Source: Candidatus Rokuibacteriota bacterium (GTDB taxonomy: Bacteria; Methylomirabilota; Methylomirabilia; Rokubacteriales; CSP1-6). Taken from it: a DNA stretch of 35,870 nucleotides. A program made the position numbers and the translations under genes. The DNA is taken from contig QHSQ01000116.1 of the NCBI GenBank assembly GCA_003221615.1, forward strand, positions 1 to 35,870, given 5' to 3'. Below the pieces are notes generated by a model. That model saw only the letters and a program-made list of their open reading frames with translations. It was not told the origin of the DNA and ran no database searches. Positions within the stretch are counted from its first letter, which is position 1. Every line of letters begins with the position of its first letter. This document shows, one piece after another, positions 22,687 through 31,886 of the stretch.

Positions 22687-24017
22687 CGCGACGCGCCTCC
22701 CGGAACGAACCGAACGCGCGCGTAGTTGTCGTCGCCGAAGTATTTCCGGGCGACCGCCTGGATCTGCGCGGCGCTGATCCCGCGCAGGCGCGTGAGATAC
22801 GCGAGCTCGTTGTCGAGGGTCCACGTGGTCTCCGCTTGCCCGTAGGACTTCGCCAGGCCTTCGGCGGTCTCGATGTCGAAGGCGTAGCTCGACTCGGCGG
22901 TGATCACGGCGCGCTGGCGCTCGGCCTCGGTCACGCCTTCAGCGCGTACCTTCCTGAGCACCTCGAGGATCGCCGCCTCGGCGCGATCGAAGTTGGCCGG
23001 CTCGAGGCGCGCCGTCACGGTCACGAGCCCGGCCTGCTGGAAGGCGCCGTAGCCCGCGTCGATGTTCGCGACGAGCCTCAGCTGCTCGCGGACGATCTGG
23101 TTCAAACGGGAGCTCGGCGAGTCTCCGAGGATGTACGTGAGGAGGTCGACCGCGTAGATGTCCTCGCTGCCCGTTGGCGCGGTCTTCCACGCCAGGCCGA
23201 GATACGCCTGCTGCTCGGCCCGGGGAATGTCCGCCCGTCGAGTGGGGTCCAGCATGGGCACCGGCGGCGTCTCGCGGGGCGGCGGGGCCACGGCGGCGAT
23301 GCGACCGAACGTGGCGTCGACGATCGGCCGCACGCGGGCCGGGTCCACGGCGCCGACGACCACCAGCACCATGTTCTTGGGCACGAAATGCTTCTGATAG
23401 AACTGTGCCAGCCCCGGGCGCGTCAGCTTCTGAATGAACTCCCGCTCGCCGAGGAGCGGACGCCCGTACGGATGCGGGGAGTAGCTGACCTCGTAGAGGC
23501 GCCGCAGCAGGAACTTCTCGGGGTCATCCTCGATGAGATTCATCTCCTCGAAGACGACCTTCTTCTCGTTGTCGATCTCGTTGGGCGGGAAGCTCGCGTG
23601 GGTCGCAAGGTCGGCCAACAGCTCGACGCCGGCGCGCAGATGCTCGACGGGCACCACGAAGTCGTAGTGCGTCGTATCGTACGACGTGTAGGCATTGCTC
23701 GCTCCGCCGAAGCCCTCGATCATCGTGTCGATCGAGCCCGGTGGGCGGGTCGGCGTCCCCTTGAACAGCATGTGCTCGATGTAGTGGGCCAGGCCGAGCT
23801 CGTTGGCGGCCTCGTCGCGGCCGCCCATCCGCATCCAGAGCTGGAGCGCGACGACGTCGCTCGCGCGATGCTCCTGGACGATCAGGACGACGCCGTTGGG
23901 CAATACCGCGCGAGTCGGCTTGGCCAGCGCGACCGGGCGAGAGCCGCCGGCGGAGGCGCACCCGGCGAGCCACAGCAGGGCGACGACGGCTGCGGCGCGC
24001 GCGAGGCGACGCCGCAT
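22683..24017 (-). CDS. M16 family zinc metallopeptidase, catalytic subunit (lipoprotein)
   Basis: 444 residues. Lipoprotein signal MRRRLARAAAVVALLWLAGC with C20. The inverted zinc motif HxxEH is intact (HYIEH, H78, E81, H82), and the downstream Glu ligand lies in the EIDNEKKVVFEEM segment near 150-157. Family enzymes degrade small peptides inside a closed clam-shell chamber. It is coupled upstream to phnA by a TGATG overlap and downstream to the non-catalytic partner by a GTGA overlap. Tethering by lipid would hold the dimer at an envelope membrane. The natural substrate is unknown. Confidence 0.92.
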   Translation of the reverse strand: MRRRLARAAAVVALLWLAGCASAGGSRPVALAKPTRAVLPNGVVLIVQEHRASDVVALQLWMRMGGRDEAANELGLAHYIEHMLFKGTPTRPPGSIDTMIEGFGGASNAYTSYDTTHYDFVVPVEHLRAGVELLADLATHASFPPNEIDNEKKVVFEEMNLIEDDPEKFLLRRLYEVSYSPHPYGRPLLGEREFIQKLTRPGLAQFYQKHFVPKNMVLVVVGAVDPARVRPIVDATFGRIAAVAPPPRETPPVPMLDPTRRADIPRAEQQAYLGLAWKTAPTGSEDIYAVDLLTYILGDSPSSRLNQIVREQLRLVANIDAGYGAFQQAGLVTVTARLEPANFDRAEAAILEVLRKVRAEGVTEAERQRAVITAESSYAFDIETAEGLAKSYGQAETTWTLDNELAYLTRLRGISAAQIQAVARKYFGDDNYARVRFVPGGASR

Positions 24018-25258
24018 CAGTGGACCCCGTTGAGCACGTAGTCGAACAGATCGAAGTTGCGCAGGTCGCCGGCCGTCGCCAGCCGCCGCGCGTGCGCATC
24101 GACGAGCGGTCGGTTGATGACGAACGGTACCGTCTGCTCCGACACGCCGCCGTGCGAACGCAGCGGCTCCTCGAGCAGCGACAGATCGTGCTCCTCGGGC
24201 GACTTCCCGAGAACGGTGTGGACGTCGCCGATGACGATCAGGTCGCCGACGCGGTCGCGCGGGAGCTCGAAGCGCGCGCAGCCGGTCGCGTTGTCGTACA
24301 CCTCGGCGATGCCGTGTGTCGCGGCGAGGCGGGACGCCACGGTCGTCGCCTGGGTCGCATCGTCGAGATAGATCGTGGCGAACGAGCCGAGCGCGCCGTG
24401 ATGGACGACGTACGGATCGGTGATCGGCAGGATCACGCGCGCGCGGCCGAGCCCGACGAGCGTGTCGAGCAGCGGACGCAGGTAGACGACCTTCGGCGTG
24501 CCGTCGGGGTTGGCCTTGGCATTCATGCCGTGGTCGGCCGTGATTCCCAACACCGCGCCGGCGCGGTCGAACGCGTCGAAGTAGCGGTCGAGCATCGTGT
24601 AGAAGGCCGTCGCCGCCGGCGTGCCGGGGGCATGCTTGTGCTGGACGTAATCGGTGAGCGACAGGTACATGACGTCGGGCCGCTCGCGCTCGAGCAGCTC
24701 GAGCCCGGCCGCCAGCACGTATTCCGAGAGCTCCGCGCTGTAGACCGAAGGCACTGGCATGGCGACCAGGTCGGTGGCGCGCTCGATGCCGTGCTCGCCC
24801 TTCGTTGTCTGGTCGGCCTTCTCGGACGAGAAGCAGACGCCGGCCATCCCGTGGCCGAGCAATCGACGAAGCTTGTCCTTGGCGGTGACCACCGCCACGC
24901 GGGCTCCCGCGCGAGATAGCGCGGCCAGGAGCGTCTCGCAGCGCAGGAACTTCGGGTCGTTCATCATCACTTCCTGGCCGGTCGCGGAATCGTAGAAGTA
25001 GTTACCCGAGATGCCGTGGACGGCCGGGGAGGCACCGGTGACGATCGACAGGTTGTTCGGATTCGTGAAGCTCGGCACGACGGACCGGGCGACGCGGTAG
25101 ACGCCGTCCCGGCGGAACCGCGCGATGGCGGGCGTCGTGTGTCCGGCGATTCCTCGCTCGAAATATTCGGGCTCGGACCCGTCGATGCAGACGACGACCA
25201 CCGGACGATTCGGAGCGTGATAGCGGCGGCCGTTGACGGAGACGGTGGTGGAGTTCAT
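24017..25258 (-). CDS. phnA: Phosphonoacetate hydrolase
   Basis: 413 residues of the alkaline-phosphatase superfamily. It cleaves the C-P bond of phosphonoacetate to acetate and phosphate at a two-zinc site. The ligand set recalled for the characterised Pseudomonas enzyme is all present, shifted by one: D26 (CIDGSEPEY), T65 (PSFTNPNNLSIVTG), D203 and H207 (LTDYVQHKH), D242 and H243 (TADHGMN), H369 (RSHGG), plus lysines K127 and K129 (TAKDKL). No signal peptide, so cytoplasmic. Usual companions (phnW, phnY, a LysR regulator, transporters) are absent; instead it follows msrQ by 31 bp and is coupled to the M16 genes. A TAGTAT hexamer ends 10 nt upstream of the ATG and may be a separate promoter. 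Confidence 0.9.
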   Translation of the reverse strand: MNSTTVSVNGRRYHAPNRPVVVVCIDGSEPEYFERGIAGHTTPAIARFRRDGVYRVARSVVPSFTNPNNLSIVTGASPAVHGISGNYFYDSATGQEVMMNDPKFLRCETLLAALSRAGARVAVVTAKDKLRRLLGHGMAGVCFSSEKADQTTKGEHGIERATDLVAMPVPSVYSAELSEYVLAAGLELLERERPDVMYLSLTDYVQHKHAPGTPAATAFYTMLDRYFDAFDRAGAVLGITADHGMNAKANPDGTPKVVYLRPLLDTLVGLGRARVILPITDPYVVHHGALGSFATIYLDDATQATTVASRLAATHGIAEVYDNATGCARFELPRDRVGDLIVIGDVHTVLGKSPEEHDLSLLEEPLRSHGGVSEQTVPFVINRPLVDAHARRLATAGDLRNFDLFDYVLNGVH

Positions 25259-25289: not shown

Positions 25290-25952
25290 TCAGGAAAGCG
25301 GGTTTTCGGCTCGGGAGCCGACTGGCGGCGACGCCGGAGCGGCCCGACCTCGGCGGCGGCGCATCACGCGTCGTCCCCACTCCCAGACGCGGACGCCGAG
25401 CAGGATGACGAGGGCGGCCGCGTACCAGTACGGATCCTTCACGCCGACCTTCGCGAGCCACAGGTAGTGAAGGACCGCGCACACCGCGGCGAAGTAGGCG
25501 AGGCGATGCAAACGATTCCAGTTCCGCGCGCCGAGCCGCCGGATCATCCCCGTCGTCGACGTGGCCGCGAGCGGGATCAGCGAGACCAGGGCCAGCATGC
25601 CCATCGTGATGTACGGGCGCTTGAGGATGTCGGCCCACATCCGCGGCCAGTCGAAGAAGAAGTCGAGCACGCTCCAGACCGCGAAGTGCAGGCAGACGTA
25701 GACGAACGCGAAGAGCCCGAGGAGCCGCCGCAGCGTGATCGGCCACGAGAGCCCGAACACGATGCGGAGCGGCGTCATCGCGAGCGACGCGAGCAGGATC
25801 CGCAAGGTCCAGTCGCCGAGCGTGTTGGTGATGAAGCTGATCGGGTTGGCGCCGAGGTCGTCGTTCCAGGCGCGGTAGGCCAGGAGCGCGAGCGGCGCCA
25901 GGCAGACGCCCCACACGAACCCCTTGAGCGCGAGGCGCGCCGGACGCGTCAC
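25290..25952 (-). CDS. msrQ: MsrQ, haem-binding membrane subunit of the periplasmic methionine sulfoxide reductase
   Basis: 220 residues with about six hydrophobic helices of the ferric-reductase-like type. Typical features: NPISFITNTLGDWTLRILLASLAMTPLR, LRRLLGLFAFVYVCLHFAVW with a haem-ligand His candidate, and NRLHRLAYFAAVCAVLHYLWLAKVGVKDP near the C-terminus with further His candidates. MsrQ passes electrons from the quinone pool or a flavin reductase to MsrP. The start is GTG at 25950-25952, 16 bp after the msrP stop. A basic Arg-rich tail follows the last helix. High confidence from family features and the neighbour. Confidence 0.93.
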   Translation of the reverse strand: MTRPARLALKGFVWGVCLAPLALLAYRAWNDDLGANPISFITNTLGDWTLRILLASLAMTPLRIVFGLSWPITLRRLLGLFAFVYVCLHFAVWSVLDFFFDWPRMWADILKRPYITMGMLALVSLIPLAATSTTGMIRRLGARNWNRLHRLAYFAAVCAVLHYLWLAKVGVKDPYWYAAALVILLGVRVWEWGRRVMRRRRGRAAPASPPVGSRAENPLS

Positions 25953-25968
25953 CGACGATTGGGGGCCA

Positions 25969-26922
25969 CTAGAAGTTCTTCTTTAGATCCAGTCCGGAGT
26001 AGAGCGACGCCACCTCGTCGGCGTACCCGTTGAATGGAAGCGTCGGCCGCCGTCGGAACTCGCCCAGGCGCCGCTCGTCCGCCTGGCTCCAGCGCGGATG
26101 GCTGACCGCCGGATTCACGTTGGAGTAGAAGCCATACTCGGACGGCGCGGCCTTCTCCCAGGCGGTCTTGGGCTGCTCGCCGACCAGTCGGATCCGGACG
26201 ATCGACTTGGCGCTCTTGAAGCCGTACTTCCACGGCACGACGATACGAACGGGCGCGCCGTTCTGATTGGGCAGCACCTTGCCGTACATGCCGACGGTCA
26301 AGAGCGTGAGCGGGTGCATCGCCTCGTCCAGCCGGAGCCCTTCGACGTAGGGCCAGTCGAGCGACGAGAAGCCGAAGAACCCCGGTTTCTGGGCCGGGAA
26401 CTGGCTCGGATCGAGCAGGGTTGTGAACTCGACGAACTTCGCCTGCCCGGTCGGCTCGACGCGCTTGAGCAAGGACGCGAGCGGAAAGCCGATCCAGGGG
26501 ATCACCATCGACCAGGCCTCGACACATCGCAGCGAGTACACTCGCTCCTCCAGTGGAAAGAGCCGGGTCAGCTCGTCGATATCGAAGGTCTTCGGCTTCT
26601 GCACGAAGCCGTCGACCTGAACCGTCCACGGACGCGGGCGCAACGTGTGGCCGAGCCGAGAGGGATCGTCCTTGTTCACGCCGAACTCGTAGAAGTTGTT
26701 GTAGGTCGTCGCCGCCTCGATCTTCGTCGCCGACTCGGTCAGGCTGAACGCGGCGTTGCGGGTGGCCGCGAGGGGCTGGAGGGTCGGCGTGGCGGCCGAG
26801 CCCATACCCGGCACCAGGACGAGCGCCGCGGCCGCTCCCGAGATCAGCTCGCGGCGGCTCAGGTAGAGCATAGGATCGGTGATCTCACTCGCGGTGAACC
26901 GCGGTGCGCGTCGAATCAGCAT
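25969..26922 (-). CDS. msrP: MsrP, periplasmic molybdopterin-dependent methionine sulfoxide reductase
   Basis: 317 residues. The N-terminus MLIRR...[21 protein letters not shown] is the standard MsrP leader with a twin-arginine motif (SRRELI, 22-27). The mature protein has the sulfite-oxidase-like molybdenum domain, with the Mo-ligand Cys at C133 ([18 protein letters not shown]), followed by the [15 protein letters not shown] block and the C-terminal [13 protein letters not shown]. MsrP reduces methionine sulfoxide in oxidised envelope proteins using electrons from MsrQ. AAGGAG lies 5 nt before the ATG at 26920-26922. It lies downstream of a two-component system, a thioredoxin-like selenoprotein and a Met-rich protein, which together suggest induction by methionine oxidation or reactive chlorine. 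Confidence 0.95.
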
Positions 26923-26955: not shown

Positions 26956-27636
26956 TCACACGGCCGCGAACTTGTAACCGTGACCATGGAGGGTCAGGAT
27001 CCACACCGGGCGATCGGCGTCGGCCTCGAACTTTCGTCTGAGCCGGAGTACGTGGGTATCGACAGTACGGGTCGTGGGAAACCGTTCGTATCCCCACACC
27101 TCGTCGAGCAATCGCTCGCGCGTGATCACTTCGCCTCGATGGGCGATCAGGAAGACGAGCAGATCGAACTCCTTGCGCGTCAGGCGCACCTCGTGGCCGG
27201 CCTTGAACACCTGGCGCACGCGTGGGCGCACCCGCACATCGCCGAACGCGAACTCCTCGAACCGTTCTCGCGGGCCGGGCCGGCGCAGCACCGCCCGGAC
27301 CCGGGCGAGCAGCTCGCGCAGCGAGAAGGGCTTGGTCACGTAGTCGTCGGCCCCGAGCTCGAGCCCGCGGACGCGGTCGACTTCCTCGCCGCGCGCGGTG
27401 AGCATGATGACGGGCACGTCCACGCCCTTCTCCCGCAGCGCACGACAGACCTCCCATCCGCTCATCCGCGGCATCATGACGTCGAGCAGGATGAGATCCG
27501 GCGCGCCGCTCAGCGCGAGCGCGAGCGCGTCTTCACCGTTGGCGGCTGCCGCGGTCTGATAGCCCTCGAATCGCAGATTGTCCTCGAGGCCGCGGACGAT
27601 CTCGGGCTCGTCGTCGACGATCAGGATCTTGGCCAT
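26956..27636 (-). CDS. OmpR/PhoB-family response regulator
   Basis: 226 residues. Receiver with D8/D9 acidic pair, phosphoacceptor D52 (LILLDVMMPRMSG), switch Thr (MLTARG) and Lys (VTKPFSLREL), then a winged-helix domain at about 125-225 (LTRKEFDLLVFLIAHRGEVITRERLLDEVWG...TRTVDTHVLRLRRKF). Its ATG overlaps the TGA of the kinase gene (TGATG), so the two are coupled. It lies 33 bp upstream of msrP. By position it most likely controls this operon; an 11-bp-spaced direct repeat upstream of the first gene (30054-30069) fits the way this family binds. Confidence 0.93.
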   Translation of the reverse strand: MAKILIVDDEPEIVRGLEDNLRFEGYQTAAAANGEDALALALSGAPDLILLDVMMPRMSGWEVCRALREKGVDVPVIMLTARGEEVDRVRGLELGADDYVTKPFSLRELLARVRAVLRRPGPRERFEEFAFGDVRVRPRVRQVFKAGHEVRLTRKEFDLLVFLIAHRGEVITRERLLDEVWGYERFPTTRTVDTHVLRLRRKFEADADRPVWILTLHGHGYKFAAV

Positions 27637-29150
27637 CAGGACCGTCCGAGCGGCAAGCGGAGCGAGAAGCGGCTCCCCTCACCCGGCGCGCTCTCCACCG
27701 TGACGTCGCCGCCGTGAGCCTCGGCGATATGCCGTACGAGCGCCAGGCCGACCCCGCTGCCGCGGCGCCCTTGTGTGTCGCTCCGGCCGACCCGATAGAA
27801 CTTCTCGAAGATCTTCGCCTGCTCCTCGGGCGCGATCCCCAGACCGCGGTCGGTCACGGCGATGACGAGCCGCCCGTCGACCACTCGGGCATCGACCGTC
27901 AACGCCCGATCGTCGGCCGAGTACTTGATGGCGTTGTCGATCAGATTCGCGAGGGCTTGCCCGACGGCGTCGGCGTCCATCGCCACTTCGGGCAGATCGG
28001 GCGCCACGCTCACCTCGACCTTGAATCCTTGCTGAGCCAGCGGATAGGCGAACGTCTCGAGCGTCCCGCGGACGAGAGGCTCGACCGAGGTCGGCGTCAT
28101 CCGGTACGTCTGGCGCCCGCCCTCGATCCGTGAGAAGTCGAGCACGTTGTCGATCAGACGCGTGAGCCGCTCACCCTCCCGGGTGATGACCCGATAGTAT
28201 TCCTGCCGCCGGCCTTCGTCCGTCACGCGTCCCATCTCGAGGGTCTCCCCGAACATCCGGATCACGGAGAGCGGGGTCTTCAGATCGTGAGACACGTTGG
28301 CGACGAAATCGGATTTGAGCCGCGCCATCTCGGTCTCCCGGCGCATCAGCCGCCACGTCGCGACGCTCCCCGCCACGATGACGGCCACGAGCGCGCCGAG
28401 GGCGCCCGTGAAGAACATCACTTGACGTCGGACGGCCTGGCGGGGCGACGCGCCCGGAGTCTGATAGACAGCCAGCCGCCAGTCGGGTAGCGCATCGCGA
28501 AACTGGACGGAGAGCACCCGCGGGGCGTCGCCGATCGGGGCGCGGCTGTAGACCGTACGACCCTCCCGGTCGAGTACGGCGATGATGGTCGGCGACTCGA
28601 GCGCGCCGAGCGTGGTTGCGAGGATCTCGCGGCGCAGGGTGTCGTCGTCACGGAGGAAGGCGACCACGACGGGCTGGCCGCCGCGCCCCGTGAGCAGCGC
28701 CAGGCAGATCTGGTTCTCGGCGATCACCACCCGCTGGCCGCCTCGCTCGAGCTTCCTCTGCGCCGGCTCCGACACCAGCGGCCCGAAGATGGCCGCGTCG
28801 CTTTCCTTCCACGCGCGCGGATAGAGCAGCTCGCCACGCGCTCCGACGAGATAGAGCCGTCGGACCAACGGCGAGCCGGCGAGCACGGCGTCGACGGCGC
28901 GTCCCGGTGACCGCTCGGCCCGGAGGGCAGCTTGCAGACGGTCGAGGAAGTCGTCTTCCGCGCGGCGCAACGTCATCTCGACCTTCTCGGCGGCCATCGT
29001 CGCCATGTCGCGCGCCTGCTCGCGGTACAGAAGCTCCGACGAGGCTTCCCACTGACGGATCGAGACGTAGCCGAGTACGGCGACGATCGTGGCGGGCGCC
29101 ACGATCGCCAGGAGCGCGAGCGCCGAGAACCTCGCGGACGGTGACAACAC
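27636..29150 (-). CDS. Sensor histidine kinase with periplasmic or extracytoplasmic sensing loop
   Basis: 504 residues from the GTG at 29148-29150; the next codon TTG is an alternative. Two membrane helices (about 10-30 and 245-268) enclose a loop of about 215 residues that would face the periplasm and is the probable sensor. Its start is helical and it contains one Cys (C149) and several Met. HisKA has H288 (ANVSHDLKTPLSV); HATPase has NLIDNAIKYS, DRGLGI, FEKFYRVG and GSGVGLAL. It is encoded 8 bp after the selenoprotein gene and overlaps the regulator gene. The sensed cue cannot be read directly; oxidative damage or oxidants in the envelope is the contextual guess. Confidence 0.9.
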   Translation of the reverse strand: MLSPSARFSALALLAIVAPATIVAVLGYVSIRQWEASSELLYREQARDMATMAAEKVEMTLRRAEDDFLDRLQAALRAERSPGRAVDAVLAGSPLVRRLYLVGARGELLYPRAWKESDAAIFGPLVSEPAQRKLERGGQRVVIAENQICLALLTGRGGQPVVVAFLRDDDTLRREILATTLGALESPTIIAVLDREGRTVYSRAPIGDAPRVLSVQFRDALPDWRLAVYQTPGASPRQAVRRQVMFFTGALGALVAVIVAGSVATWRLMRRETEMARLKSDFVANVSHDLKTPLSVIRMFGETLEMGRVTDEGRRQEYYRVITREGERLTRLIDNVLDFSRIEGGRQTYRMTPTSVEPLVRGTLETFAYPLAQQGFKVEVSVAPDLPEVAMDADAVGQALANLIDNAIKYSADDRALTVDARVVDGRLVIAVTDRGLGIAPEEQAKIFEKFYRVGRSDTQGRRGSGVGLALVRHIAEAHGGDVTVESAPGEGSRFSLRLPLGRS

Positions 29151-29158
29151 TCCGGCGG

Positions 29159-29686
29159 CTACCCCCCTTCTGCGAGAAGCCGCCGAATCATCGCCTCGGT
29201 CGCGTCGTACTCGCCCTCGCCGATGTGCTGGTAGCGGACGATCCCCTTGCGATCCAGGAGGATCGTCGTGGGCCAGGCCCAAACGCCCCAGCGCTTCCAG
29301 ATCGTGTGCTCGTTGTCCTGTACCACCGGGTACCGGACCCCCAGCTTCTTCGTGGCGTCTACCACGCTCTGGTACGGCTTCTCCCAGAAGAACTCCGGGC
29401 TGTGCACGCCGACGACCATGAATCCGTCCTTCTCGTACCGTTCGTACCAGCCCCGCAACTGCGGGATCACGTTCCTGCAGTTGATTCAGCCGAAGGTCCA
29501 GAACTCGACCAGCACGACCCGGCCGCGCAGGCCCGGTGTGGTCAAAGGCCCGCTGTTGATCCAGCGTTCTCCCGCGACCTCCGGCGCCGGCGCCCCGAGA
29601 CGCGAGGCCTGGCCGGTGGATGACGTGAAGGCGAATCCCGCGGCCGCCAGGAGGCCGACGACGACGAACGACGCGCGCCAGGACAC
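29159..29686 (-). CDS. TlpA/thioredoxin-like selenoprotein with in-frame TGA at the redox site (WTFG-U-INC)
   Basis: 175 codons read through one TGA (29486-29488, residue 67). Before it: signal anchor MSWRASFVVVGLLAAAGFAF, then GAPAPEV...LRGRVVLVEFWTFG. After it, in the same frame: INCRNVIPQLRGWYERYEKDGFMVVGVHSPEF, then the cis-Pro region VWAWPTTILLDRKG. Redoxins of this type read WTFGCINC or WTYTCINC, so TGA stands exactly at the first catalytic Cys; the resolving Cys is residue 70. A hairpin suited to selenocysteine insertion starts three nt after the TGA. Decoding needs selA, selB, selC and selD elsewhere in the genome. A simple stop codon would leave two useless fragments. GTG start 2 bp after the MXKDD gene. 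Role: thiol/selenol redox in the periplasm. Confidence 0.88.
29456..29483 (-). promoter_or_regulatory. Bacterial SECIS-like hairpin after the UGA
   Basis: In the RNA, three nt after UGA: stem CAACUGC pairs perfectly with GCAGUUG, then an A/C mismatch, then GGA with UCC, closing a hexaloop ACGUGA. The loop carries a GU and its G lies 16 nt from the UGA, inside the 16-37 nt window described for bacterial SECIS elements. It is coding at the same time. Confidence 0.75.
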
Positions 29687-29688
29687 GG

Positions 29689-29985
29689 CTACTGCTTCTT
29701 CTCCATCGTCTTGTCGCCCTGCATCGTCTTGTCGCCCTGCATCATCTTATCGTCCTTCATCATGGCCTTTCCGTCCTTCTTCATGTCGTCCGACTTCATG
29801 TCGCCTTTCATCCCGTCTGTTTTCATCGTGTCGCTCGACTTCGTCTTGTCGCCGGTCTTCATCGTGTCGTCCTTCTTCATGTTGTCCTGGGCGACCGACT
29901 CGCCGACCCCCCCGGCGAGCCCGAACACGATGCCCGCCACCGCGATCACGATCACGCGCCCCAGCCACCCCGTCCGCTTCGGCAT
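29689..29985 (-). CDS. Exported Met-rich pentapeptide MXKDD repeat protein
   Basis: 98 residues. Signal peptide at about 1-33 (MPKRTGWLGRVIVIAVAGIVFGLAG...SVAQ). The mature 65 residues are almost only Met, Lys, Asp, Thr, Gly and Ser, with 12 methionines (18 percent), no Cys and no aromatic residue, arranged as MKKDD, MKTGD, MKSDD, MMKDD and MQGDK units. This matches the MXKDD pentapeptide repeat family. It resembles in composition the MrpX peptide that scavenges hypochlorite together with MsrP/MsrQ in Azospira. AGGAGG lies 6 nt before the ATG. It is the first gene of the redox operon, so a sacrificial methionine pool in the periplasm, repaired by MsrPQ, is a reasonable role. Metal binding is the alternative. 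Confidence 0.85.
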   Translation of the reverse strand: MPKRTGWLGRVIVIAVAGIVFGLAGGVGESVAQDNMKKDDTMKTGDKTKSSDTMKTDGMKGDMKSDDMKKDGKAMMKDDKMMQGDKTMQGDKTMEKKQ

Positions 29986-30053
29986 GTAGATCCTCCTCGA
30001 AGGATCGAATCTCGATCTGATGTCGGAAGTATGGAAGGGACGGGAGCGGCAAT

Positions 30054-30069
30054 CGTCACAACCGTGTCA
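30054..30069 (-). promoter_or_regulatory. Direct repeat, candidate operator of the OmpR-type regulator, upstream of the MXKDD gene
   Basis: The minus strand reads TTTGACACGGTTGTGACG, with TGACA and TGACG repeated at 11-bp spacing, the geometry bound by OmpR/PhoB-type winged-helix dimers. The first copy also contains TTGACA, a perfect -35 hexamer, although no matching -10 follows. The remainder of 29986-30136 shows no gene. Confidence 0.4.
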
Positions 30070-30136
30070 AATCTTTCAGGAGAGGCCCACGTTCGGTCGG
30101 CCGGGGTCGGGCGGGCCGGGACGGGCGCGAGTTAGG

Positions 30137-30820: not shown

Positions 30821-30948
30821 TTTAACGGAGCCTGCGAGCCCGCTGCGACCGAGGGTGGCCTGACGCAGGCGCTGGCCGGCATCGCTTGTAACGGAGCCTG
30901 CGAGCCCGCTGCGACCGAGGGTGGCCTGACGCAGGCGCTGGCCGGCAT
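30817..30948 (-). CDS. Coupled 43-codon mini-ORF made of two 22-residue repeats
   Basis: The open frame starts with ATG overlapping the TGA of the alpha-subunit gene (TGATG) and ends with TGA overlapping the GTG of the beta-subunit gene (GTGA). The encoded peptide is MPASACVRPPSV...SQAPLQA followed by an almost exact second copy ending in PLK. No known domain. Because 66 bp is a multiple of three, each added unit keeps the frame and the coupling. Expression is not shown; it may be only a spacer that preserves ribosome flow between the subunits. Confidence 0.4.
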   Translation of the reverse strand: MPASACVRPPSVAAGSQAPLQAMPASACVRPPSVAAGSQAPLK

Positions 30949-30949
30949 C
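30823..30949. repeat. Two identical 61-bp direct repeats, 66-bp period, with internal inverted repeats
   Basis: Copy 1 is 30823-30883 and copy 2 is 30889-30949, identical over 61 bp and separated by GCTTG. Each contains GCCTGCG and CGCAGGC (30830-30836 and 30864-30870 in copy 1) and a smaller GCCTG-ACG-CAGGC hairpin. This resembles a REP-like dispersed element placed as a tandem pair inside an operon. Confidence 0.9.
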
Positions 30950-31886
30950 ACTCTATCCCCTCGCGGCGGTAGTAGTCGGTGAACCATAGCGGGTCGGCGC
31001 GAAACTCGACTCGGCCGTCGGGATGGACGCGGGCCGTGGCCCGACGCGAGGACAGACAGAAGCTGTGGAGCCCGACCGGCATGCCGCCGGTGTGGGAGTA
31101 CGCGACCTCGACATGCGTGGCGACGACGAGCGACGTGCCGGCGAAGCCCATCGCGCCGATCCCGATGTAATTGCCGAGCGCGGTCAGCTCGTCCTCCAGC
31201 GCCGCGATCGCGGGATCGGGGTTCCGGCTGCCGACGGCCCGCAGGCACGCGGCTTCCTTCCCCAGGCGCACGCACGTGTCCTTCGACCCGCCGATGCCGA
31301 CCCCGACGATCGCGGGCTGGCACGCCAGGCCGCGCTTGCCGAACTGAACGAGCGTGTCGACGAAGAACCGTTTGATGCCGGCGATGCCGTCGGCCGGGAA
31401 CAACATCCGATAATCACTGCCGAAGAGCCCGCCCTTGTGGACCGTGGTGATGTCGATCCAGTCGCCGCCAGGCTCGAACGCGTAGGTGATCTCCGGCGCG
31501 TGAACGCCGACGTTGTTGTCGTGGTCCACACGGGTCAGCGGGTGGACGCGATTGGGTCGGAGCGGAATCGACGCGGTCGCGTCCGCGGTCGCTCGACGCA
31601 GCGCGCGCTCGAGAGCCACGAAGCCGCCTTCGACGAGCGCGTCGTTGCCGGCCCGGACGTAATAGCGCGGCAATCCGGTGTCGGCGCACATGGGACGGCG
31701 TTCCTCGGTCGCGATGTCCCAGTTGCGGTCCATCTCGGTGAGCACAAAGCGGGCGATCCGATTCCGCTCGCGATCGCGAGCCTTCCGGACACCCTCGCGA
31801 TAGTCGGTGGGGATGTCGATGGCCGCCCGCGCCATCAGCTCGCGCGCGGTGTCTTCGATGAGCTTGATCGAGATCGGTCTGGCCAT
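30948..31886 (-). CDS. Class I fumarate hydratase / tartrate dehydratase, alpha (N-terminal) subunit
   Basis: 312 residues. It has the family motifs PMCADTGLPRYYV, VDHDNNVGVHAPEITY, HKGGLFGSDYRMLFPADG and VGVGIGGSKDTCVRLGKEA. The three iron-sulfur cysteines are C67, C205 and C277 (HSFCLSSRRA), the expected set for the [4Fe-4S] cluster. Paired with the beta subunit downstream it makes a two-subunit, oxygen-sensitive hydro-lyase. The gene starts 20 bp after the MFS gene, so the transporter may import or export the acid that the enzyme uses. The stop codon sits at the edge of repeat copy 2, so the repeat may have inserted exactly at the end of the gene. Confidence 0.92.
   Translation of the reverse strand: MARPISIKLIEDTARELMARAAIDIPTDYREGVRKARDRERNRIARFVLTEMDRNWDIATEERRPMCADTGLPRYYVRAGNDALVEGGFVALERALRRATADATASIPLRPNRVHPLTRVDHDNNVGVHAPEITYAFEPGGDWIDITTVHKGGLFGSDYRMLFPADGIAGIKRFFVDTLVQFGKRGLACQPAIVGVGIGGSKDTCVRLGKEAACLRAVGSRNPDPAIAALEDELTALGNYIGIGAMGFAGTSLVVATHVEVAYSHTGGMPVGLHSFCLSSRRATARVHPDGRVEFRADPLWFTDYYRREGIE

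Follow-up and report, generated by a model that had tools for sequence, protein, structure and literature searches.

The apparently broken gene on the minus strand of the 35,870-nucleotide stretch of DNA analysed here (the window) is almost certainly one whole gene for a selenium-containing redox protein. We hold it to be highly probable that this is a full-length selenoprotein with a DipZ-type thioredoxin fold and that its SECIS is a hairpin in the coding region at 29466–29451 (hairpin B); the protein is probably exported, and it may act as a redox partner of the methionine-sulfoxide reductase MsrPQ in the cell envelope. The sequence evidence consists of a conserved UGA, the presence of the selenocysteine (Sec) machinery, the predicted fold, the constraint on the hairpin and the gene neighbourhood.

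The interrupted gene and its product

Translation of the minus strand from 29686 to 29159 gave a single frame from a GTG start to a TAG stop, with a TGA at 29488–29486 as the sole interruption. This confirmed the proposal, made earlier from the DNA letters alone (the sequence-only reading), that two open reading frames in this region are one continuous frame split only by that codon. The product of the joined frame has 175 residues with one Sec (U67) and reads ...VVLVEFWTFG-U67-INCRNVIPQLR.... The features of the gene are:

29159–29686, minus strand: selenoprotein gene, thioredoxin-like, with a UINC motif and, judged from the sequence, an N-terminal hydrophobic signal-like segment
29486–29488, minus strand: in-frame TGA, putatively read as Sec67, the first residue of a CxxC-type motif, from TGA conservation in orthologues
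29477–29479, minus strand: codon for Cys70, presumably the resolving Cys in UINC, from the alignment

Orthologues were sought in 60 genomes of the order Rokubacteriales, and matches were obtained in 47. The site is readable in 43 short orthologues of the order, a count that leaves out two genomes with a partial copy lacking the site (G036, G046) and two with a longer relative only (G045, G057). The codon is TGA in 41 of these, much more often than chance would give, and TGC in the other two, both from genus g6, which answers the question of whether Cys or TGA stands at the aligned column. Apart from the window protein itself, the orthologues are 54–84% identical to it. Across the phylum, 61 of 95 genomes gave a match, and the 12 further short matches spanning the site all carry TGA (12/12). 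The spread of the family across phyla amounts to at least 118 stretches, a lower bound; some of the records duplicate contigs of the genomes searched, and identical ones were merged. In homologues without the TGA, including plasmid homologues, the residue aligned to Sec is Cys. The second position of the motif pair, Cys70, is invariant across a 30-sequence alignment; in two relatives from the same class (L238, L242) it is Ser, so that these read WTHG-U-INS, with Sec kept and the second Cys replaced.

The Sec protein gave Pfam matches above cut-off to AhpC-TSA (PF00578), Thioredoxin_8 (PF13905) and Redoxin (PF08534), and none at cut-off among the NCBIfam models, where the top match was ResA (60 bits, cut-off 170). 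By sequence, the closest solved proteins are the DipZ C-terminal domain (E 1.2e-36), SOQ1 and NHLRC2. An AlphaFold2 model built on 30 aligned sequences had a mean pLDDT of 87.4, with the first 25 residues mostly below 50, and a Foldseek search with it returned the DipZ C-terminal domain first (PDB 5cyy, 2hyx; E about 3e-18), followed by SOQ1, ResA-like proteins and NHLRC2. The thioredoxin fold, the WTxxCxNC-type motif and the top similarity to DipZ, NHLRC2 and SOQ1 identify a DipZ/NHLRC2-type thioredoxin-like domain, which makes the earlier TlpA-like assignment more exact; the placement of Sec at the start of the CxxC-type motif also held. The N-terminus resembles a signal segment, and the protein is probably exported.

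DipZ is a thioredoxin-like domain fused to a CcdA membrane domain. Its C-terminal domain from M. tuberculosis (2hyx, 5cyy) is the closest solved relative of the window protein by both sequence and fold. The window protein differs from it in being stand-alone, with thioredoxin-type matches only in its 175-residue frame and no fused CcdA-like membrane domain, and in having Sec in place of the first Cys. Among the resemblances is the motif, which is FWTYS-C-INC in two Cys homologues with a DipZ annotation and FWTFG-U-INC in the window protein. NHLRC2 and SOQ1, in which a thioredoxin-like domain is combined with NHL repeats, share the same type of thioredoxin-like domain, but no NHL repeat was matched in the window protein. 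A longer UINC selenoprotein family, with a UGA and the same kind of hairpin, was also encountered (L104–L108, L110, L111 and many contigs of L115–L231, e.g. L118:2236-3741) in Rokubacteriales and on contigs titled Chloroflexi, Gemmatimonadetes, Actinomycetota and others. NHL repeats are present in one scanned longer UINC protein (L118); the other scanned protein is only a 73-residue piece.

Thioredoxin-like selenoproteins with a UxxC motif are a known kind, and several generic entries for them appear in a 2026 catalogue of 119 families (PMC13188914), among which Table 1 has Thiol-disulfide isomerase-like (cd02966), Redoxin family (PF08534) and Prx-like thiol:disulfide oxidoreductase (PF00578). 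These redoxin-like entries share the UxxC thioredoxin fold with the window protein, and the generic domain matches overlap (PF00578, PF08534, PF13905). The terms DipZ, cd03012, NHL and Rok are absent from that text; the comparison being one of terms and domain names, inclusion of the present subfamily under a generic catalogue name is possible. The same source mentions a Methylomirabilota MAG for which 63 selenoproteins are predicted (PMC13188914). Among the open-licence literature matches listed, none was seen to describe such a selenoprotein from Rokubacteria, of the NHLRC2 type or linked to MsrP; with respect to those matches, the new elements are a Sec domain of DipZ type, the conserved SECIS that belongs to it and the neighbourhood with MsrPQ, neither the subfamily nor the context having been found described. 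A gene caller treating UGA as a stop would be expected to split or truncate the Sec gene, and dozens of genomes from an uncultured phylum would then seem to lack the protein.

Gene neighbourhood and proposed role

Along the minus strand, the Sec gene follows a Met-rich peptide gene and precedes a histidine kinase, a response regulator, MsrP and MsrQ, in that order:

29689–29985, minus strand: Met-rich MxKDx-like repeat peptide (MrpX/BcrX-like), ending 2 nt before the Sec gene
27636–29144, minus strand: sensor histidine kinase; frame as used, start approximate
26956–27636, minus strand: OmpR/PhoB-type response regulator
25969–26922, minus strand: MsrP, methionine-sulfoxide reductase catalytic subunit (NF003767, 470 bits, cut-off 207)
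25290–25952, minus strand: MsrQ, haem-binding membrane subunit (NF003831, 164 bits, cut-off 130)

The peptide matched TIGR02953 (pentapeptide MXKDX) with E 3.3e-5 and 23.7 bits, below the cut-off of 41. Just downstream of msrQ lies a gene for PhnA, phosphonoacetate hydrolase (24017–25258, minus strand; TIGR02335, 589 bits, cut-off 408), which is found at the same position in several relatives. On the other side of the Sec gene, the window contains a 64-nt direct repeat (30823–30952; spacing 66, copies 98% identical) where the two fumarase/tartrate-dehydratase-like subunit genes meet.

A set of Met-rich peptide and MsrPQ is known from Azospira suillum (MrpX-YedYZ) and Brucella melitensis (BcrXQP), where it has been linked to hypochlorous acid (PMC8315932). 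The window locus resembles these systems in that a candidate Met-rich peptide, its MXKDX match being below cut-off, is likewise encoded with MsrPQ, msrP and msrQ both scoring over cut-off. It differs in its regulatory genes: the MrpX-type systems are regulated by an ECF sigma factor (PMC8315932), and the window locus contains a two-component system. The word "thioredoxin" is absent from PMC8315932.

Within the order, 34 of the 43 orthologous loci encode MsrP within 7 kb and on the same strand as the Sec gene: 13 at directly-adjacent-gene distance, 18 beyond the kinase-regulator pair and 3 upstream. Near the remaining 9, of which 2 are at contig edges, no MsrP was found. A kinase lies downstream of the Sec gene in 28/43. 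Nine of the 43 loci have an ORF rich in Met, Lys and Asp in the 1.5 kb upstream of the Sec gene, as against 0 of 1,382 control stretches drawn from these loci; this is the count at the stricter threshold, a looser one giving 10 loci, and less than 1.5 kb of upstream sequence is present in 5/43.

On the basis of this neighbourhood, the Sec gene may form the selenium-dependent arm of an oxidative-damage repair locus that would respond to oxidants. Sec67 would be the nucleophile that attacks an oxidised thiol, and Cys70 the thiol that resolves the resulting mixed selenosulfide; the UINS relatives (L238, L242) would need another thiol for this step. Re-reduction of the Sec protein could be carried out by a CcdA/DsbD-like membrane protein as electron donor, and there are two DsbD_TM matches in the genome from which the window comes. 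In envelope proteins, the Sec protein would thus reduce cysteines oxidised to disulfides or sulfenic acids, and MsrPQ in parallel would reduce methionine sulfoxides. If the link to MsrPQ is true, selenium is tied to methionine-sulfoxide repair outside the membrane.

There is a substantial chance, somewhat short of even, that the protein is a true selenoprotein whose function, for example in cytochrome c or general disulfide maturation, is unrelated to MsrPQ, the neighbourhood being a coincidence peculiar to Rokubacteriales. Consistent with such a function, short-form UGA relatives outside the order mostly have no MsrP near them in the stretches examined, many of which are short. For two DipZ homologues the annotation is cytochrome c biogenesis protein, and four copies (L089, L091, L092 and L099, the first at a contig edge) are accompanied by the kinase and the regulator with no MsrP found. 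Linkage to MsrP in 34/43 loci, 13 of them at directly-adjacent-gene distance, argues against a coincidence, as does the recurrence of the order thioredoxin–MsrP–MsrQ in L220, a contig titled Deltaproteobacteria on which the Sec gene, MsrP (58%) and MsrQ (49%) are arranged as in the window. Also outside the order, L157 has a weak match (29%).

A wider reading can be offered tentatively, and we would not give it even odds: that in this order selenium works in the repair of oxidative damage in the envelope, where the Sec enzyme, as a partner of MsrPQ and of a sacrificial Met-rich peptide, would repair thiols or recycle the peptide. In this reading, genus g6 has given up Sec for Cys with the sel machinery kept (see below) and, in one member, a hairpin devoid of its loop G; the UINS relatives, which keep Sec but have no resolving Cys, would suggest that selection holds Sec and not the dithiol.

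The hairpin following the UGA

Two overlapping and mutually exclusive hairpins can be formed downstream of the UGA:

29456–29483, minus strand: UGA-proximal hairpin, put forward as the SECIS in the sequence-only reading; best fold in the window sequence; no covariation
29451–29466, minus strand: hairpin B, best-supported SECIS hairpin, UCCCGC / loop AGUU / GCGGGG, from synonymous constraint, covariation and presence

The UGA-proximal hairpin exists as it was described (CAACUGC/GCAGUUG, an A/C mismatch, GGA/UCC and the loop ACGUGA), except that it starts 2 nt after the TGA and not 3. It is part of the minimum-energy fold, with −21.1 kcal/mol over 61 nt including an outer stem and −13.4 kcal/mol over 45 nt. 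These energies are unexceptional: 7 of 200 shuffled sequences were as good for the 61-nt fold (z −1.83) and 35 of 200 for the 45-nt fold (z −0.98). Hairpin B has 25 nt between the UGA and the loop, six pairs, and G and U as the second and third loop nucleotides. At −9.9 kcal/mol, it is not the best fold of the window, whose energies favour the UGA-proximal hairpin (−13.4 vs −9.9 kcal/mol), but it meets the bSECIS model, which specifies a loop of 3–9 nt, a stem of 4–16 bp, G in the first two loop positions, a distance of 16–37 nt from the UGA and −7.5 kcal/mol or lower (PMC13188914).

A scan for hairpins with at least five contiguous pairs was carried out on 165 rows (161 TGA, 4 Cys; 153 distinct TGA 78-mers), from which most short-frame matches had been dropped and in which a few chance rows may remain. 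Among the 153 distinct UGA sequences, the dominant closing pair was 27/32, present in 105; numbered from the T of TGA as 0, this pair corresponds to hairpin B in the window. Pair conservation was counted over 151 distinct TGA rows. A stricter filter left 155 TGA and 12 Cys rows, with 133 distinct TGA 45-mers. In this set 116/133 UGA sequences and 0/12 Cys homologues have a bSECIS-like hairpin that reaches −7.5 kcal/mol, two of the Cys homologues having a weak hairpin (−4.6 and −1.8 kcal/mol); 17/133 UGA sequences have no qualifying hairpin.

Covariation was evaluated with 35 non-redundant sequences, at most 82% identical. For hairpin B, the score was 0.240 against 0.156 in shuffled alignments, 66.1% of cells were paired against 59.5%, and 23 cells were double-changed against 13.1, with 0 of 500 shuffles as high in each case. 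On two of the five measures it could not be set apart from the shuffles, namely double-change pairs (5 vs 4.0; 90/500) and pair types (54/500). When the hairpin was slid by +1 column, the double-changed cells numbered 24 vs 23, but pairing and score were lower. For the UGA-proximal hairpin, the score of 0.123 was indistinguishable from the shuffled 0.122, with 231/500 as high. Synonymous codon usage gave a similar division. In UGA orthologues with the majority residue, codons +8 to +11 after the UGA are CCG in 41/41, CAG in 40/40, TTG in 38/38 and CGG in 41/41, the expected identities being 0.53, 0.77, 0.43 and 0.36, and TTG is rare elsewhere in the same genes, at 19 out of 294 codons for Leu. 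In the UGA-proximal hairpin, the left arm, at codons +2 and +3, varies synonymously (AAC 39, AAT 2; TGC 36, TGT 5).

That the protein is a true selenoprotein with the UGA-proximal hairpin as its SECIS is accordingly unlikely in our estimation, although that hairpin is the best fold of the window and each of its lower-stem pairs is possible in at least 38 of the 41 Rokubacteriales UGA sequences. The latter is partly explained by the arms being also fixed by the protein sequence or by hairpin B. The folds of many relatives differ from the UGA-proximal hairpin, its upper GGA/UCC stem is lost even in close relatives (pair 13/24 forms in 16/41), and hairpin B is the more stable of the two in 113 of the 133 UGA sequences, the other in 20. 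We therefore rejected it, given the absent covariation and the left arm free of synonymous constraint; it is probably not the working SECIS. On the comparative evidence, the hairpin under RNA-level selection is the overlapping one at 29466–29451. RNAalifold run on the 35-sequence alignment gave 0 pairs and no consensus structure, which we attribute to differing loop registers and which still counts against a single rigid model, and an Rfam search of 28900–30100 returned nothing at E ≤ 1.

The fold of the window sequence switches to hairpin B when 9 or more nucleotides are removed, counting from the T of TGA, whereas the UGA-proximal hairpin persists with 6 removed. A ribosome positioned at the UGA and covering the first nucleotides after it would therefore leave hairpin B. 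In the favoured reading, SelB and Sec-tRNA would decode the UGA at 29488–29486 as Sec67, directed by the coding-region SECIS hairpin UCCCGC-AGUU-GCGGGG at 29466–29451. As this case illustrates, the most stable fold of one sequence can be the wrong hairpin.

Sec machinery and probable replacement of Sec by Cys

In the genome from which the window comes, contig C263 carries selA (587 bits), selB (377 bits) and tRNA-Sec (69.8 bits) together, and contig C106 carries a selD whose active site (SYASCAGU) itself contains an in-frame TGA. No tRNA was detected in the window by ARAGORN, the tRNA-Sec being on another contig. All of selA, selB, selC and selD are present in the genome, and the lack of every sel gene, which would have spoken against the sequence-only reading, is not what was found; together with the TGA conserved in orthologues this supports its selenoprotein claim. 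A second likely selenoprotein is encoded in the same genome, as a TlpA-like UxxC frame reading WATWUPDC (G000:C126:13364-13777, minus strand, L057).

Throughout the order, selA scored above cut-off in 54/60 genomes. It was not found in five of the 41 UGA-bearing genomes (G018, G025, G041, G042, G052). At a contig edge, G018 has a fragment of selA and the whole of selB; its tRNA-Sec match falls just below threshold (46.4 of 47 bits). In the other four, one of which (G052) is rated 100% complete, no selA, selB or above-threshold tRNA-Sec was found; the missing sel cluster may reflect either one unbinned contig or true loss.

These data bear on two further explanations of the TGA. Its translation as another amino acid, through a genome-wide change of code or ordinary read-through, is very improbable: an in-frame TGA is evidently tolerated, but TGA is an ordinary stop here, ending 7 of the 13 window genes checked (the Sec gene among the 13), Cys is aligned in the TGA-less homologues, and the Sec machinery is complete. 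Genome-wide recoding was rejected on these grounds. A pseudogene or sequencing error, with the TGA a real stop or a misread TGC, could be argued from the single metagenome-type assembly and from the resemblance of the two fragments to separate ORFs, but is ruled out for practical purposes by the orthologues, since TGA is kept in 41 of the 43 readable ones, protein constraint is strong on both halves flanking it, and the sel genes are present.

The two Cys orthologues of the order (L079, L081; genus g6) were placed in a tree of 73 rows chosen from 163. They are nested, with support 95/94, in a clade made up of 17 Sec rows and these two, and for this reason Cys most likely replaced Sec there. 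L081 retains a 5-bp stem with a loop AAUU that has no G, and in L079 the hairpin is lost; remnant SECIS structures following a change from Sec to Cys are already known in other families (PMC1794560). In both genomes selA and tRNA-Sec are retained, as is selB, of which G012 has an incomplete copy at a contig edge. On two Chloroflexota contigs (L138, L164), a UGA copy and a Cys paralogue occur together. The natural Sec/Cys pairs that the family as a whole offers in one operon context make it possible to ask what Sec buys an extracytoplasmic redox enzyme.
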